In this document: one piece after another, positions 22,676-31,027 of the stretch
Layout: each line of letters begins with the position of its first letter
How positions within the stretch are numbered: the stretch's first letter is position 1
Source: Victivallales bacterium
GTDB taxonomy: Bacteria > Verrucomicrobiota > Lentisphaeria > Victivallales > GWF2-38-69
Reading direction: 5' to 3'
Length of the DNA: 45,012 bases
NCBI GenBank assembly: GCA_021733985.1
Contig: JAIPJT010000019.1
Location: 1 to 45,012 of the forward strand
Notes under the pieces: generated by a model
What the model saw: only the letters and a program-made list of their open reading frames with translations
Told to the model about the DNA's origin: nothing
Databases searched by the model: none
Program-made: the position numbers and the translations under genes

Positions 22676-24499
22676 TTATTTCAAACCGAGTTTTTGTAAG
22701 GTTGTTTCTGTAGGATTACCATTTTTATCCCAGCCTCTCAGTACATAATATTCCTCTAAAAGCCCAATAAAATCGTAATCCGACTTTAAAAACCTCACCG
22801 GTAGTATATCATCTTTTTTAGTCAAGCCTTCTCTTCTATTGAAAAGTGTCTTCAAATTAAAAATTCTTTCGCCGGTTTTTAAAAATTCTTCTACAGTAAG
22901 ATCCCAACCGGTTATACAGTTAAGCCATTCAACTATTTTAGTTATTGTTACATTGTAAGAAAAAGCAAACTTACATATTTTTACCGAATCAAACAAACTC
23001 ATTAAGTTCTGCATTTTTACTGTTAACTCAGCTTTCCTCCCGGTAGATATCATATCATCCAGAGGTTCTTTAAAACCAAGTTCAGGCGCACAGCCCCAGG
23101 TTGTTTCTAAACCGTGAGAAAATGCCTGAAGATGGCAGGCTCCTCTCGGGCTTGTAGCAAAACCTAAGGCAACAGAAACAAATGCTCTCGGGTCATGAGC
23201 CGGAAATTCCAGGCCTTTAACATGGATATCAAGTTCTCTGTTACCGCCGGCAAGTTCCCTGTTTGCTGCCCTGACACCTTTGCTTAATACATTTCCGATA
23301 CCTTCTCTTTTCCCGATTAAATCAGTAAGAGCTACAAGGGTATCCCCGTTTCCCCAGGTAAGCTCCAATCCTCCGGTATCTTCTTTTGTTATGTAACCTT
23401 TTTCATAAGCTTCAAACGCGAAAGAAATAACCTGCCCAACAGAAATAGTGTCCATTCCGTATCTGTTACATAAATCATTAGCTTTAGTTACAGCTTCAAT
23501 ATCATCAACTAAAGTAGAAGTCCCCATTGTTCCGAGAGTTTCATATTCAGGGCCACCAGCAGGTATATCGGTCTTATATTTTCCTTTTTCCACCTGTACT
23601 ACTCTACCGCAGCCGAAAGGGCATTTACTACAGTGATAATTGCTTTTAAGCACCGTTTCAGCTATATTCTGTCCAGTTAGGTGATGAACTTTTTCGTCAT
23701 CCCATTTTCTGTCCTGCCAGTTTCTAACGGGCATATCACCTATATCGTGGCAGACATCTAAAGTACCGGAAGTCCCGTAAGCTTTAAACTCGGCAGCAAC
23801 AGAACTCAACTTCTTCATTGATTCCTTGACAGAGATTTTGAGAGCTTTTTCATCATATAAATTTACAGATTTTTTACCCTGGCAGCATACAACAATTTTT
23901 AAATTCTTGGCTCCCATTACAGCCCCCATACCGCATCGACCGGCTACGCGAGCATCCTTACCATCTGAAACAATGGCAGCAAGAGGAGAAAGAAGCTCCC
24001 CTGCGCCACCAATACCCATTGTGCTTATTTTATTTTCCGTATTTTCTCTTAAAATTTCATCTGCCTTGTAACTATCTTCTCCCCAGATATTTTCAGCATT
24101 CCTTATTTCAACATTATCTCCGTCAATGTTGATATAGGATCTGCTTTCAGCCCTTCCTTTTACAATAAGGCCGTCATAACCGGATTTTTTTAGAAAATCG
24201 CCGAACTTTCCTCCTACGTCAGCTTCACACCAACCACTTGTAAGAGGAGATTTTGAAACAACACTTGTTCTTCCTGAACACGGAACAACAGTGCCGGCAA
24301 ACGGCCCGACCAAAAACATCAGAATATTATCAACATCCAGAGCATCAGCCCCCCGGGGCATTTCTTTGTTTAGAATGTAAGCCCCTATGCCGGTGCCGCC
24401 AATATATCTTTTGTATACGTCTTCGCTGAATTCTCTCTTTTCTATCTTGTTTGAAGTTAAATCAACTTCAAGCAATACTCCGGTGTAACCGTACAACAT
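22676..24499 (-). CDS. tungsten/molybdenum aldehyde:ferredoxin oxidoreductase
   Basis: A 607-residue AOR-family enzyme that oxidises an aldehyde to a carboxylate (or the reverse) with ferredoxin, using a bis-pterin W/Mo cofactor and one [4Fe-4S] cluster. The N-terminus (GYTGVLLEVDLTSNKIE) is classical. The cluster ligands are Cys290, Cys293 and Cys297 (HCSKCPFGCGR) plus Cys509 (VKICKF), spaced as in Pyrococcus AOR. Pterin-contact strings such as GRCGMGAVMGAKNL and AHDPRAF are present. AGAGGG precedes the ATG, and the gene follows the Fe-type alcohol dehydrogenase by 14 nt. Together they could take an alcohol or aldehyde to the acid. The true aldehyde is unknown. Confidence 0.93.
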   Translation of the reverse strand: MLYGYTGVLLEVDLTSNKIEKREFSEDVYKRYIGGTGIGAYILNKEMPRGADALDVDNILMFLVGPFAGTVVPCSGRTSVVSKSPLTSGWCEADVGGKFGDFLKKSGYDGLIVKGRAESRSYINIDGDNVEIRNAENIWGEDSYKADEILRENTENKISTMGIGGAGELLSPLAAIVSDGKDARVAGRCGMGAVMGAKNLKIVVCCQGKKSVNLYDEKALKISVKESMKKLSSVAAEFKAYGTSGTLDVCHDIGDMPVRNWQDRKWDDEKVHHLTGQNIAETVLKSNYHCSKCPFGCGRVVQVEKGKYKTDIPAGGPEYETLGTMGTSTLVDDIEAVTKANDLCNRYGMDTISVGQVISFAFEAYEKGYITKEDTGGLELTWGNGDTLVALTDLIGKREGIGNVLSKGVRAANRELAGGNRELDIHVKGLEFPAHDPRAFVSVALGFATSPRGACHLQAFSHGLETTWGCAPELGFKEPLDDMISTGRKAELTVKMQNLMSLFDSVKICKFAFSYNVTITKIVEWLNCITGWDLTVEEFLKTGERIFNLKTLFNRREGLTKKDDILPVRFLKSDYDFIGLLEEYYVLRGWDKNGNPTETTLQKLGLK

Positions 24500-24513
24500 T
24501 CGAGCCCTCTTTA

Positions 24514-25578
24514 TTATTTTATTTTAAATGTTTTCCTTAATAAATTTTCTACTCCCTCTTCGTCCACTTTTTCAGGGTTCGTTTTAGCATTGACGTTTAC
24601 TGCGGAAACAGGAACAACTTTAGAAACTATCTCCTCTGTCAGTACAATTTCCCTTATACTGTATAATTCCTGTATTTTATTTAATATCATACCGGCTTTT
24701 TCTGCCATAGGAAACAGCTCTATGTACTTATCAAATGCTATAGCCTCTTTATTATAATCCACAGTATTCACAAGTAAATTAGCACATACCTCCCCATGGC
24801 TCAGTCCGTAACAGAAACCGGGGAGAATATTTGCTAAAGCATGAAGTATACCGTTACTTGCATTAGCCATTGCCATGCCTGTCAGCATTGAACCTTCGAG
24901 TATAAAGCTTCTCGCTTCCATATCATTACCGTCCTTAACTGCATTTTCAAGGTAACCAATAATTCTTCTGCATCCTTTATAGGCAAGAATATCTGAAATT
25001 GTAGTAGCTGAAGTTGACATAAGCGATTCGATACCGTGTGATAGAGCATCCATCCCTGTAAATAATGTAATAAGCGGCGGAACTGTGACAGTAGTGCGTG
25101 GATCAAGCAGAGAAATGTTCGGTGCTTTACATTGAATGCTCATTTTTATATGAGTTTCATCATCTGTAATAACCGCCCACTCATTCAGTTCACTGCCGGT
25201 CCCCGCGGTAGTAGGTATAGTAATAAAAACCTCACATCCAATTCCCTGTGCTATCAGCTTTGAAGCATCCAAAGTTGACCCGCCTCCCACAGCAATACAA
25301 ATTTCGGAACTGCAGTCTTTCAAAGACTGAATTCCTTTATCACATTCTGATTTCATAGGGTTAGGACTTATCCCTGTATATTTGCCTGAAACTACAAGAC
25401 CTCCCTCATTTAAGTTTTTTTCGATTCTTAAAAGCAACGGTTCAATCCATTTGCCGGGATCTGAAATTAAAGCAATTTTTTTTTTGAGTGTTTCATGCCT
25501 GATAAGGGCCGCAAGCTTATCAAGTGATTTAGGGCCGAATACTATTTTCGGTTTAACCAAATGCTCATAATTCCACAT
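24514..25578 (-). CDS. iron-type (group III) alcohol dehydrogenase
   Basis: A 354-residue NAD(P)-dependent dehydrogenase of the Fe-containing family. Seen: the nucleotide-binding AVGGGSTLDASKLIA, IPTTAGTGSELNEWAVI, and the metal-site strings GMDALSHGIESLMS and YGLSHGEVCANLL. The start at 25578 has AAAGGTGA upstream. It lies 12 nt after the BCCT transporter gene and 14 nt before the AOR gene, so the three are almost certainly cotranscribed. In this setting it probably interconverts the alcohol and aldehyde of a small imported compound. Enzymes of this family also include sulfoacetaldehyde and phosphonoacetaldehyde reductases, so the substrate is open. Confidence 0.9.
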   Translation of the reverse strand: MWNYEHLVKPKIVFGPKSLDKLAALIRHETLKKKIALISDPGKWIEPLLLRIEKNLNEGGLVVSGKYTGISPNPMKSECDKGIQSLKDCSSEICIAVGGGSTLDASKLIAQGIGCEVFITIPTTAGTGSELNEWAVITDDETHIKMSIQCKAPNISLLDPRTTVTVPPLITLFTGMDALSHGIESLMSTSATTISDILAYKGCRRIIGYLENAVKDGNDMEARSFILEGSMLTGMAMANASNGILHALANILPGFCYGLSHGEVCANLLVNTVDYNKEAIAFDKYIELFPMAEKAGMILNKIQELYSIREIVLTEEIVSKVVPVSAVNVNAKTNPEKVDEEGVENLLRKTFKIK

Positions 25579-25590
25579 TAATTTTCACCT

Positions 25591-27159
25591 TTATAAATCC
25601 TTGTCTTCTTTTGCTTTTACCGCTTTGGTCAAGATCATGCAGACGCTAACCGCCGCAGCTATTTCTATAAATAAAATTGGAAGGCCGGAAATTACTCCAA
25701 TATTTTTAAGCGCTTCAACTCCGCCGCTCACTATACCGAGCAAAGCTAATCCACCCATAATTATTCCCCAGCCGAGTTTAACATTTGCGGGGGGCTCGGG
25801 GTCTTCGACTGTATGGCCTGAAGTGCTTATTGTTGCCACCGTCGTAGTCATTGAGTCAGCACATGTAATAAAGGAAACAGTACATACGATCGCCGCTATG
25901 ATTTGTGTTAACAATGCAAAAGGATGATATTCGAGGAGAACATACAGCGCCATTGCCGCTCCCTTCTCGGCTATCAGCTTATGCATATCAACACCGTTAA
26001 ACTGAAGGAAAAGGCTGTCACCACCAAAAATTGCAAACCAAATTCCTATAAACAATGAAGGGAATATTAAATTATAAATTATAAAATCTCTGACAGTTCT
26101 TCCATAAACAAGCCTTGCCAGAAACATACCAACCATCGGTGCAAACGAAAGCCAGACACCCCAGTAGAAAAGTGTCCAGTTTGTCACCCAGGAATCATCA
26201 TTAACAGCGCCGAGGCGGAAAGACATAGGGATAAAGTTATTCAGAAAACTCCCGAAAGCCTGAGTTCCGGTTTTCATTATAAATGCAGCCGGCCCTGTAA
26301 CAAAAGCAAAAATCATAAGAATAATAAACAGTTTCATATTATTGTCACTCAAAAAAGCTATACCTCTTTTAATACCTGTATAACTTGAAGTGGTATAGGC
26401 AAGTATCAGGAAGAGCGTCACAAATGCCCATAATATATGACTGTGACCAAGTGAGGTATACCCTGTAATATATCCTATTCCTCCGCTTAACTGAAGAACC
26501 CCCAGGCCTAACGAATGCGCAACGGCTCCGCATATCGAAAAAAGGGTTATAGCATCGATTATCCTACCCCATTTTCTTACTCTTTTTTCACCTATAACAG
26601 GATAAAGACCCGAGGCCACACAAAATGGTAATTTTTTATTATAATAAGCGTAAGCTATAGTTATTCCGAATAAAACATACATAGAATACGGTGTCAAAGT
26701 CCAATGAAAAAATACAGTCCTGAGAGCAAACATAGCAGATGCAGCAGTATTCGGTTTTATACTTAAAATTTGCGGAAAGTTAGTCAAATGGGCCATCGGC
26801 TCAACTACAGCCCAGTAAGTAATGCCTATCCCCATTCCTGTACATAAAGAAATAGCAAACCACTGCCATTTACTGAATTCTGGTTCTGCATCTTTTCCGC
26901 CGAATTTAATATTACCGGCAGGGCTGAGCATGATTCCGAGACATATAACAGTAAAGGCAAACCCGCCAAACATATAGAGCCAGCCCCAGCAGTTGAATAC
27001 CCACTGCATTGTATTTTTTAACACTGCATCAACGCTGTGTCTTTCAATAATACCCAGAATTAGAAGCAGCATTAAGATAATAAACGGCGGCCAAAATACC
27101 ATTTTCCTAATCGGCTTGAAGTTGACTGACGTTGCTTTGTATCTGCTTAAAAACCCCAT
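25591..27159 (-). CDS. BCCT-family transporter (betaine/carnitine/choline type)
   Basis: A 522-residue, twelve-helix secondary transporter of the BCCT family, which moves quaternary ammonium compounds (and, in some members, taurine-like zwitterions). GMGIGITYWAVVEPMAHL in helix 3 and the signature NWTLFYWGVWLSFAPMVGM are clear. GMGIGITYW deviates from the GMGIG-F/Y pattern of sodium-coupled BetP and the signature is closer to CaiT. I choose the ATG at 27159 because GAGGG lies 6 nt upstream; the GTG at 27171 is part of that ribosome binding region. It heads the ADH-AOR cluster, implying uptake of the substrate these enzymes act on. Confidence 0.92.
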   Translation of the reverse strand: MGFLSRYKATSVNFKPIRKMVFWPPFIILMLLLILGIIERHSVDAVLKNTMQWVFNCWGWLYMFGGFAFTVICLGIMLSPAGNIKFGGKDAEPEFSKWQWFAISLCTGMGIGITYWAVVEPMAHLTNFPQILSIKPNTAASAMFALRTVFFHWTLTPYSMYVLFGITIAYAYYNKKLPFCVASGLYPVIGEKRVRKWGRIIDAITLFSICGAVAHSLGLGVLQLSGGIGYITGYTSLGHSHILWAFVTLFLILAYTTSSYTGIKRGIAFLSDNNMKLFIILMIFAFVTGPAAFIMKTGTQAFGSFLNNFIPMSFRLGAVNDDSWVTNWTLFYWGVWLSFAPMVGMFLARLVYGRTVRDFIIYNLIFPSLFIGIWFAIFGGDSLFLQFNGVDMHKLIAEKGAAMALYVLLEYHPFALLTQIIAAIVCTVSFITCADSMTTTVATISTSGHTVEDPEPPANVKLGWGIIMGGLALLGIVSGGVEALKNIGVISGLPILFIEIAAAVSVCMILTKAVKAKEDKDL

Positions 27160-27213
27160 ATTTTCCCTCACATTTTATTTTTTATAATTCTCATACTCCC
27201 CATGATAGTTCTT

Positions 27214-27235
27214 ACCTGAATCCGTGAGATCAGGT
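27214..27235. promoter_or_regulatory. dyad upstream of the BCCT gene
   Basis: ACCTGA (27214-27219) and TCAGGT (27230-27235) form a perfect inverted repeat with a 10-nt centre, 55 nt before the BCCT start. It could be an operator for the transporter-dehydrogenase cluster. The remainder of the 250-nt gap is AT-rich; a further 7-1-7 palindrome (ATTATAG-T-CTATAAT, 27390-27404) lies just after the ParA gene. Confidence 0.35.
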
Positions 27236-27427
27236 GTTATACAGAAAAGTTTCACACTCTAAGGTCATTCTGATAAGTTTTATAAAATAAACCTATCCCA
27301 AAAAGAAAAACTTTACTAATTCACGCAAACTCACCGACCGTAAATTCTTTTCGTGCAACATCGAATTAAAAAAATGAAATTAATAGCAAATTATAGTCTA
27401 TAATCTATTAAAAGCTATAAATAAATA

Positions 27428-28168
27428 CTAAAAAATTATTTTCCTCACTTCGCCCCATAATTCAACAAAAGCCTTCGTGCCCGGGGAAGAAGGATTGTAG
27501 CTGCAAACAGGGTTTCTATAGATCCCCATTTTTTCAATATCAGTATTATATGGAATAAATGTATGCAGCAGATTTGTTATTTCACCCTCATCCATGATCT
27601 GTTTATGAAGTTTTTTTCTTCGTTCAACCATTGAAAAAAAAGGTAGAATCTTTTTTGTGTCAAGCCCGAATTCTTCAAAAAAAACTATTAATTTTTTATA
27701 TGAAAGCAAAGATAAAGTTGTAGGAATAAGAGGAACTAATATATAATCGGCCGCTCTGAAAATATTTTCAGAAAGAAGAGTAACATTAGGCGGGCAGTCA
27801 AAGAGTATAAGGTCGTACTGTTTTCTCAAAGGTTGAGTAACTTTTTTAAGCCTGTTTTCAGATTTTTTCATATTACCAAGCTCAATATCAAAATTTCTAA
27901 AGCTCATACTTGCCGGTAATAAATCGAATCCCTCAAAGTCAGTACCTTTGATATTACGGTCGATCAGATTACTCTTTTTTTTAAAAATCTTTTTCGAATT
28001 TATTTGTTTTGCAGGCTTGATGCGAAGGTAATATGAAGTAGCTCCCTGAGGGTCTAAATCCATTAGCAAAGTCTGAATATTTTCGCAGGATGCAAGATAT
28101 GATAAATTAACAGATGCAGCAGTCTTTCCTACACCGCCTTTTAAATTATATACAGCCAGACTTTTCAT
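27428..28168 (-). CDS. orphan ParA/MinD-type ATPase
   Basis: A ParA-family ATPase of 246 residues when started at the ATG at 28168, which has AAGGA 6 nt upstream; the longer frame from 28237 adds 23 residues with no family similarity. The deviant Walker A NLKGGVGKTAASVNLSYL is complete, including the signature lysine, followed by LLMDLDPQGATSYYL and LILFDCPPNVTLLSEN. There is no ParB, centromere-like repeat or origin gene nearby, so chromosome or plasmid segregation is unlikely. It comes 102 nt after a CYTH-like/CHAD gene on the same strand, suggesting a cargo-positioning role like those of McdA and other orphan ParA proteins. Confidence 0.88.
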   Translation of the reverse strand: MKSLAVYNLKGGVGKTAASVNLSYLASCENIQTLLMDLDPQGATSYYLRIKPAKQINSKKIFKKKSNLIDRNIKGTDFEGFDLLPASMSFRNFDIELGNMKKSENRLKKVTQPLRKQYDLILFDCPPNVTLLSENIFRAADYILVPLIPTTLSLLSYKKLIVFFEEFGLDTKKILPFFSMVERRKKLHKQIMDEGEITNLLHTFIPYNTDIEKMGIYRNPVCSYNPSSPGTKAFVELWGEVRKIIF

Positions 28169-28270
28169 TTTAATTCCTTGTAATTTTATAGGTGTTGCAA
28201 CAAAAGTGTTATCTCTGCTGAAGATGAATGAGACCACGGAGAAAATACTTTTCAGTTGAACTTCTAATTA

Positions 28271-29806
28271 TTAATGTTTAAACAGTTGTTCATAAAGCAT
28301 TTTATTGTTATTGCTTATAAATTCATTAAACCTTTCATAAAACTCGATTCTGCAGTCATTTTTTTTATTATATGCCGAAGTTATCAGTCCGCCGATAGCA
28401 GCAGAAATTCTTGTATTGTCGCTGTTCTGTCCTGGAATTGAATAAAGGTATTCATTTAAGTGCTCCTGTTGCATGCACATATCATTAAAATTTCCTAATG
28501 TATCCTGCATTTTTTTCAGCTGCTTTATTGCGGATGAGATTTCATTTTCGGGAAACAGTGAAGAAAATAATTCAAGTAAATACCTTAGTTTTTTACAGTT
28601 TATCCTGATTTGATGAAATTCTTCATCATTAGACGTATTGCTTATATTACAGCCTCTTTTAATTATTTTCTGATATCTTTTATAAATATATTTTTTTGCA
28701 ACATTGATTATCCGCGAATCAGCCTCGTCACCTTTCAGGACTGTTTTATTTGAATAAAGAAAAGAAGACCATGAATCCATTCTTTTCTGATAATCCTCAG
28801 AAAGCAGCATATCAGTGACTAATTTTTTTTCCTTTTTTCGTTTTTTCTTTACATCTTCAAAAAAAACTATCAATTCTTCATGCAGGTTGGGAGGAAGCAT
28901 TTTCTGATATTCTTTTTCACTTAAGAGATAAACGTCCATATCACGAAGGTTATTTGTAGCCGCAGCAATCTTTTTTAAATTATCTGTATGCCCTTTGAGC
29001 TGTTCAGTATTAAAAACTTTTTTAAGTTGTCCTGCAACAGAACGGGTTTTCCGAATAGCAACCCTGTAGTCATGCAAAAATTCGGTATCAAAATCTCCTA
29101 TGATACCATTTTCATTAGCTTTTATAACTGATAATAATCCTTTCAGGATCAAAATAACAGTTTCAAAAGCATTCATTTGAGGCTGTAGATTAAAAACAGG
29201 CTTGCTGGTATAATTTAAGCTTACATATCTGCTTGATGAAAAAAAAACTTTCAGAAGTTCATTATTCTTAATTCTTCTCCCGGGTAAATTTTTCAGTAAA
29301 ATATTCTCAGCTGTCTTTCCCGCTTCTCCATATCCTCTTAGAGGAAGCAACTCTATAAGACGGTATAACTTGCTATTTACCTCATTAGGATCAGAAATCG
29401 AAAATTCTTTGAGTTTCCCTCTGACAACAATCTTCCTGTCATCATTTAAAAAAAGTAAAGGTGTTTCATTAAAGTAAATTTCAACCGCCGGTAATAAAGA
29501 GCGAATACCGACAAGAGGCTTAAGAACTTCACTAATACTTTCAGGGAGAGTATTCAGCATCGTAGGTAAAGTTTTCTGCTTAAAAGAGATAGGACTTCTA
29601 TTATCACTGAATTCAAGTTTATATACTCCTCCGGATTTATAGAACCTTATCCCGTTTTTTATTAGTTTGCAGTCAAAAGTATCAAAATATTTCAGCCTCC
29701 CGGAAAATGTTTTTTCCCTCTCTATATATGGAAATTCATTCAAAAACAAAGAAGGTATTACGTCGGGTACTGAATCTAAAGTTATTAAGAATACAAATTT
29801 TTCCAT
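28271..29806 (-). CDS. CHAD-domain protein with degenerate CYTH-like N-terminus
   Basis: A 511-residue cytoplasmic protein. The C-terminal half (about 220-500) is a CHAD domain, a helical bundle with conserved His/Lys/Arg that binds polyphosphate: FLHDYRVAIRKTRSVAGQLK in the first repeat and FHQIRINCKKLRYLLELF plus QLKKMQDTLGNFNDM in the second. The N-terminal ~200 residues resemble a CYTH domain (KYFDTFDCKLIKNGIRF) but the start reads FVFLITLD, so the catalytic ExExK is missing and triphosphatase activity is unlikely. CHAD proteins are known to associate with polyphosphate granules. The gene precedes a ParA gene, and a perfect palindrome (29847-29867) lies upstream. No Shine-Dalgarno is evident at the ATG. 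Confidence 0.88.
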   Translation of the reverse strand: MEKFVFLITLDSVPDVIPSLFLNEFPYIEREKTFSGRLKYFDTFDCKLIKNGIRFYKSGGVYKLEFSDNRSPISFKQKTLPTMLNTLPESISEVLKPLVGIRSLLPAVEIYFNETPLLFLNDDRKIVVRGKLKEFSISDPNEVNSKLYRLIELLPLRGYGEAGKTAENILLKNLPGRRIKNNELLKVFFSSSRYVSLNYTSKPVFNLQPQMNAFETVILILKGLLSVIKANENGIIGDFDTEFLHDYRVAIRKTRSVAGQLKKVFNTEQLKGHTDNLKKIAAATNNLRDMDVYLLSEKEYQKMLPPNLHEELIVFFEDVKKKRKKEKKLVTDMLLSEDYQKRMDSWSSFLYSNKTVLKGDEADSRIINVAKKYIYKRYQKIIKRGCNISNTSNDEEFHQIRINCKKLRYLLELFSSLFPENEISSAIKQLKKMQDTLGNFNDMCMQQEHLNEYLYSIPGQNSDNTRISAAIGGLITSAYNKKNDCRIEFYERFNEFISNNNKMLYEQLFKH

Positions 29807-29810
29807 CGTT

Positions 29811-29867
29811 ACTGTACAGTTCGGACATTTTTGTTTGGCAATATCGAATTCAGACTTTGTCTGAATT
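29811..29867. promoter_or_regulatory. two palindromes upstream of the CHAD gene
   Basis: AATTCAGAC (29847-29855) and GTCTGAATT (29859-29867) form a perfect 9-bp inverted repeat with a TTT centre. A second perfect 10-bp palindrome, ACTGTACAGT, occupies 29811-29820 directly before the start codon. Either could be a protein-binding site, or the first could fold in the leader RNA. No T-run follows on the minus strand, so it is not a terminator. Confidence 0.5.
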
Positions 29868-30103
29868 TAGGGTATAGGAAAAATCAAAATAGTCAAACTT
29901 CAAAAAAAATTAGTAGTAATATTTTATATAGGATTATATTAACTGGAAAACTATTTTAATAGAGTTATCATATAAATAATTTTCAAAATGCAGAATAACA
30001 TAATAAATATTAAGGTTAAAGGCCGGACACAGAAAACTATTCGACGATAATGGATGACTTTTTGTGCAGGCTGTAATTATCATGTTTAAAAGGACTATTA
30101 TAT

Positions 30104-31027
30104 ATGAATAACAGCAGTCAAAAGGACATTGAAAACAAGATTTTAAAGCTAAAAAAAGATAGAAATGCAATAATACTCGCCCATAACTATGTTTTAGGAG
30201 AAATACAAGACATAGCCGATTTTTGCGGAGACTCACTGGAACTGAGCAGAAAAGCCGCGGGAATACCCGAAGAGACAATTGTTTTTGCCGGAGTTAAATT
30301 TATGGCAGAAACAGCGAAGATCTTATGTCCTGAAAAGACCGTCCTCCATCCTGTTGCAGGGGCCGGATGCCCAATGGCTGATATGGCTACAGTAGAGGAC
30401 GTAAGAAATATAAAAGAAAAATATCCTTCGGCAGTGACTGTATGCTATGTCAACAGTAATGCAGATGTAAAAACAGAAGCTGATATATGCTGCACTTCCG
30501 GGAATGCAGAAAAACTTGTAGCCAGTATACCTGAAGATAAGGATATTATTTTCCTCCCTGACCAAAATTTAGGTGCTAATATAGCACGAAAGCTTAACAG
30601 AAAGATTATTTTATGGGAAGGATACTGTCCTACACATATGAGGATTTCCCCCGAAATGGTCAAACGTAAACAGGATGAGTTTCCTGAATCAGAAACCATC
30701 GTCCACTTAGAATGTAAACCTGAAGTGGTAGCAATAGCTGATGCTGCGTTAAGTACTGCAGGTATGCTTAAATATGCAAAAAACTCTACCGCAAAAAAAT
30801 TAATTGTAGGTACTGAAATAGGCATGATCCACAGACTTCAGAAAGAAAATCCGGGTAAGATATTCATTCCGCTTTCAGAACAGGCTGTATGTATGGATAT
30901 GAAAATGCCTGAACTTAAGGATATTTTAAATTCTCTTGAAAAAATGGAAACACAAATTATCCTTGATAAAGAAACAATAAGAAAAGCGCATCTTCCTATA
31001 AAAAAAATGCTTGATTCTAAATTTTAA
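30104..31027 (+). CDS. nadA: quinolinate synthase NadA
   Basis: An oxygen-sensitive [4Fe-4S] enzyme that condenses iminoaspartate with dihydroxyacetone phosphate to quinolinate in de novo NAD synthesis. The 307-residue length is that of the short NadA type. The three cluster cysteines are in AKILCPEK (Cys75), HLECKPEVVA and EQAVCMDMK. Other hallmarks are LAHNYVLGEIQDIADF, YVNSNADVKTEAD, FLPDQNLG and GTEIGMIHRL. AAGGACT precedes the ATG. No nadB or nadC is in the window, so the gene stands alone. The 297-nt region upstream, shared with the CHAD gene, is very AT-rich. Confidence 0.96.
   Translation: MNNSSQKDIENKILKLKKDRNAIILAHNYVLGEIQDIADFCGDSLELSRKAAGIPEETIVFAGVKFMAETAKILCPEKTVLHPVAGAGCPMADMATVEDVRNIKEKYPSAVTVCYVNSNADVKTEADICCTSGNAEKLVASIPEDKDIIFLPDQNLGANIARKLNRKIILWEGYCPTHMRISPEMVKRKQDEFPESETIVHLECKPEVVAIADAALSTAGMLKYAKNSTAKKLIVGTEIGMIHRLQKENPGKIFIPLSEQAVCMDMKMPELKDILNSLEKMETQIILDKETIRKAHLPIKKMLDSKF

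Follow-up and report, generated by a model that had tools for sequence, protein, structure and literature searches.

The window analysed here, a stretch of 45,012 nt from a Victivallales genome (contig JAIPJT010000019.1), carries on its minus strand a gene for a CHAD-domain protein followed by one for an orphan ParA-type ATPase, and we are close to certain that these two form a functional pair in polyphosphate (polyP) biology. The CHAD-ParA pair recurs in at least seven phyla. As its mechanism we favor, with reasonable confidence, the positioning or partition of polyP granules with the CHAD protein as cargo adaptor. Somewhat more cautiously, we propose that it probably represents a widespread ParA-class system for the spacing and inheritance of these granules, with a degenerate polyphosphatase-CHAD protein that would act both as adaptor and as ATPase activator.

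The parA open reading frame spans 27428-28237 (minus strand), with ATG 28168 as the likely start (MKSLAVYNLKGGVGKT). The resulting 246 aa protein (27428..28168) matches Pfam AAA_31 (1.5e-35), belongs to a CHAD-linked ParA clade and contains the deviant Walker A motif KGGVGKT (28121..28141, minus strand). A preliminary description of this DNA had reported a ParA with an intact motif of this kind about 100 nt behind a CHAD gene on the same strand, with neither ParB nor centromere repeats nearby, and all of this was borne out. The CHAD stop and the ParA ATG are separated by 102 nt (28169..28270, minus strand), the whole genome (2.46 Mb in 71 contigs, 96% complete) gave no match to ParB_N (PF02195), and no centromere-like repeat or parS cluster was found around the pair (26900-30300). 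Hence, both features expected of a ParABS system, a cognate ParB and nearby centromere repeats, are missing at the window pair. The genome encodes one strong AAA_31 protein and a single CHAD protein. The 102-nt gap contains no terminator-like site, and promoter-like matches in the region did not exceed chance.

The pair is flanked upstream by a divergent nadA and downstream by a group of genes for a BCCT transporter, an Fe-alcohol dehydrogenase and an AFOR. No McdB partner and no carboxysome genes were detected at this locus, the partner being the CHAD protein, and ppx-ppk1 are present in the genome on another contig. The downstream genes (22676-27171, minus strand) lie in tandem, the transporter gene having a GTG start and the AFOR being an aldehyde ferredoxin oxidoreductase, and possibly allow an amino-alcohol or a quaternary amine to be taken up and oxidized.

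Clade membership of the ATPase is sharply defined. Exactly one copy of the clade ParA was found in each of 20 genomes, scoring 295-449 bits versus at most 131 for other ParA-like proteins, and in a phylogenetic tree 41 members fell on one side of a branch of length 1.56 with an SH-aLRT support of 100. In the 48-row clade alignment the KGGVGKT motif is invariant, and the whole deviant Walker A (K10-T16) is strictly conserved together with D37, D39 and D124, which argues for a working ATPase cycle. The clade also has signatures that Soj lacks: IPTTLS (148-153), S133/E134, FFS (177-179), K185, H188, E212, M214/G215, R218 and W238. The canonical Soj DNA-binding arginines can be traced in part, with R184 aligned and the second one replaced by the nearby K213/R218; R184, K185, K213 and R218 are conserved toward the C-terminal side. 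The structural model of the window ParA (pLDDT 93.7) has Soj/ParA as its nearest folds (9a6n, 8ray, 2bej; TM-score 0.85-0.89 to Soj and ParA structures), ranking ahead of MinD, FleN and BcsQ. Judged from sequence and predicted fold, the window ATPase is of the Soj type and not of the MinD type. One clade ParA, encoded in a Bacteroidota genome without CHAD (L063:9992-11677, plus strand), carries a C-terminal fusion to a sucrose-phosphatase-type HAD domain.

The partner gene (28271..29806, minus strand) encodes a degenerate CYTH-CHAD protein of 511 aa, the candidate granule adaptor; position 29806 is a better choice of start than 29867. The Pfam CHAD profile (PF05235) covers residues 220-450 with 8e-49 and 167 bits, against a cut-off of 25.6. 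The best PDB matches of its AlphaFold2 model (pLDDT 93.1) are the Chlorobium CHAD structure 6qv7 and the polyP-bound 6qva, at 37% identity. In CtCHAD, mutations have attributed polyP binding to His253, Arg256, Arg260, Arg296 and Arg418/Tyr419 (PMC6537752). Alignment to 3e0s/6qv7 places H245, R248, R252, R288, R408 and Y409 of the window protein at these positions within the CHAD domain (28457..29149, minus strand), and the six residues are kept in 74-75 of 75 aligned CHAD partners.

Residues 1-196 (29219..29806, minus strand) form a CYTH/TTM-like domain, for which Foldseek retrieved YgiF (best E 7.8e-10), thiamine triphosphatases and an archaeal TTM at moderate TM-scores. As the preliminary description had stated, this domain has lost the ExExK motif, and the loss extends to the whole paired-CHAD subfamily: a regular expression for ExExK matched only 3 of 86 paired proteins, and none of 52 members matched Pfam CYTH. 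R102 and K125 are nevertheless invariant in the domain among the 75 aligned partners. Between the two domains lies a Y-S/T-S-K linker motif (residues 199-202; 29201..29212, minus strand) in the loop of lowest model confidence (block pLDDT 68); its positions are occupied by Y in 68, S/T in 68 and 66, and K/R in 68 of the 75 partners. The strict motif occurred in 62 of 86 paired CHAD proteins versus none of 26 unpaired ones, a specificity that is only suggestive because most of the unpaired set comes from different CHAD subfamilies and the near variants YSGK and YSMK occur in close unpaired relatives. By likeness to other ParA partners, we guess that this linker could be a ParA-contact peptide.

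Among the 80 best matches to the ParA alignment in species genomes, nearly all those with upstream sequence have a CHAD gene immediately upstream; the exceptions are L063 and L084, which lack it, while L091, L094 and L096 start at contig edges. In 78 measured pairs, the genes overlap by exactly 4 nt in 35 cases and lie within 30 nt in 62. Since this list was ranked by similarity, we additionally made even draws over taxa, in which CHAD was located directly upstream on the same strand for 29 of 33 clade ParAs (11/12 in Gammaproteobacteria, 6/7 in Thermodesulfobacteriota and 12/14 in the window's phylum; two, one and four of the respective draw genomes were previously known carriers). The four unpaired ones belong to genomes without any CHAD. 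Non-conservation of the adjacency in related genomes had been named in advance as grounds for abandoning the idea, and the opposite was found. In Gammaproteobacteria, 11 of the 12 clade ParAs drawn adjoined CHAD, compared to not one of the 51 Soj-type ParAs in the same draw (Fisher 1.9e-11). Chance adjacency is ruled out by the three draws and this internal Soj control, given that the pair is conserved across phyla. ParA and CHAD identities are correlated (r=0.78, 0 of 999 permutations), to which shared ancestry contributes in part. In 100 relatives from the window's order, the clade ParA occurred in four genomes, directly beside CHAD in all four, while CHAD was found in twelve and ppk1 in most. 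Outside the CHAD-linked clade, hardly any ParA-like proteins were found in these 100 genomes at E 1e-12.

The linkage is not absolute. A clade ParA is present without CHAD in genomes G142, G264, G471, G539 and G567, which means that either CHAD is not the sole partner or these ParAs are relics, and G568 (L084/L225) has the two genes at separate loci. We found no shared replacement adaptor beside the clade ParA in the CHAD-less exceptions, where its neighbors are an SNF2 helicase (G471, G539) or, as identified by eye, a PmbA-like protein (G142). In G264 the gene is preceded by one for a small coiled-coil and PAS protein (L228:8387-9007, minus strand), a possible alternative partner. Conversely, many CHAD genes have no adjacent ParA, implying that in these cases positioning is done otherwise or not at all. 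A search for natural ParA-CHAD fusions yielded none. In the relative G095, ppx-ppk and pfkA face away from a NUDIX-CHAD arrangement without ParA (L023:3068-10749), suggesting that the pair can lose ParA yet keep its polyP genes.

The connection to polyP proposed earlier is further upheld by gene context, together with the conserved polyP-contacting residues. The pair is often located near ppk1, ppx, CYTH, NUDIX, sixA-like or pst-phoU-phoB genes, and ppk1 lies in the flank of 20 of 80 loci. Considering only long loci, ppk1 was found in 10 of 41 where about 0.2 would be expected (about 0.5% per locus; p about 1e-14). Unbiased clustering of neighbors recovered the histidine-phosphatase family at 26 loci, PPK at 18, CYTH at 13, Ppx at 7 and a phosphate-binding-protein family at 6. 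In Lentisphaerota the gene order is ppx-ppk-pfkA-NUDIX-CYTH-CHAD-ParA, and a plasmid cassette of Paracoccus marcusii (L232:1-9249) comprises pstCAB-phoU-phoB, three small hypothetical genes and then CHAD-ParA-CYTH-NUDIX-CYTH. In this cultured host, phosphate uptake genes and the pair thus occur together.

In the mechanism that we propose, the CHAD domain would use its basic pore to coat either the granule or the polyP chain as it grows, while ParA as an ATP dimer would bind the nucleoid non-specifically. Contact with the CHAD protein, through either the CYTH-like domain, itself catalytically dead, or the Y-S-S-K linker, would stimulate the ParA ATPase and release ParA from DNA. Granules would then ride ParA gradients and in this way be spaced out and divided among the daughter cells, like carboxysomes with McdA/McdB. 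A conserved adjacent gene for a cargo-binding partner, as a cargo-positioning system calls for, is what the 29 of 33 pairings and the conserved polyP residues provide.

Alternatively, nothing might be moved, and ParA could be a P-loop regulator of polyP metabolism comparable to BcsQ or FleN, the pair forming an ATP-responsive switch on PPK1, a CYTH phosphatase or phosphate uptake. The linked genes (ppk, ppx, CYTH, NUDIX, pst-phoU) are indeed metabolic rather than structural, and some ParA relatives do regulate, with BcsQ and FleN among the structural neighbors of our model. However, Soj/ParA folds are nearer than those of MinD, FleN and BcsQ, and the clade ParAs are compact (about 243-262 aa) without an evident membrane-targeting or regulatory extension, so that we rate such a regulator as unlikely, though worth keeping in mind. 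We consider it still less probable that the pair is a static or semi-static tether, anchoring the granule in the nucleoid or tying polyP to chromosome compaction as AlgP might do, with no ATP-driven spacing. Such a role would fit the origin of polyP granules in the nucleoid region and the view that AlgP works via DNA binding (PMC9239181, PMC13052382), but the strict conservation of K10-T16, D37, D39 and D124 in 48 clade members speaks for an ATPase that cycles.

That the protein is simply a ParA for chromosome or plasmid partition which lost its ParB and came to lie beside CHAD by accident is highly improbable. Its fold is Soj-like, and some clade copies reside on Paracoccus replicons called plasmids; the Paracoccus copy, however, sits in a phosphate cassette, and Soj-like paralogues coexist with the clade ParA in most genomes searched. 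The lack of ParB in the window genome, the separate clade and the CHAD pairing conserved across phyla led us to reject plasmid or chromosome partition. Positioning of polyP granules remains our preferred reading.

Among known systems, the pair resembles McdA/McdB of Synechococcus and Halothiobacillus, likewise a ParA-type ATPase with a cargo-bound partner that acts on a cytoplasmic body without ParB/parS. It differs in that its partner is not McdB but a structured polyP-binding CHAD protein, its proposed cargo is a polymer granule, and its ATPase fold is nearer to Soj than to McdA. With Soj/ParA of ParABS it has the fold and ATPase motifs in common, whereas clade, signature residues and lack of ParB set it apart. 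Phosins and other CHAD proteins (CtCHAD, the Ralstonia CHAD proteins, PptA, YgiF) share the CHAD fold and polyP-contacting residues, and YgiF also has a CYTH-like N-terminus; loss of ExExK, a dedicated downstream parA gene and the conserved YSSK linker distinguish the paired CHAD protein from them. In Pseudomonas aeruginosa, even spacing of polyP granules requires AlgP (PMC9239181), in contrast a histone H1-like DNA-binding protein that is not an ATPase and is unrelated to the pair in sequence. For granule spacing, a 2025 review lists a single factor, AlgP of one species, with ATP dependence given as unknown (PMC13052382). A conserved folD-ppk-parA-CHAD group has been described in Acidithiobacillus, its ParA being read as plasmid or chromosome partitioning (PMC10892726), and these genes also appear in a figure of another study (PMC6416229). 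Going by these descriptions, the parA-CHAD genes next to ppk are very likely the same pair, recorded there in one genus only and without the idea of positioning. A study of five ATPases in Halothiobacillus does not mention CHAD (PMC10241942). We found no description of an ATP-driven polyP positioning system in the open-licence literature, a scope that may pass over reports in subscription papers or preprints.

If the proposed role is true, the pair would be the first system to position polyphosphate at the expense of ATP. As a candidate for the spacing and inheritance of polyP granules it is concrete and widespread, its cargo-binding fold is known, and its cultured hosts include Paracoccus marcusii and Methylomonas lenta. 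A role in positioning would also define the cargo of an entire clade of orphan ParAs.
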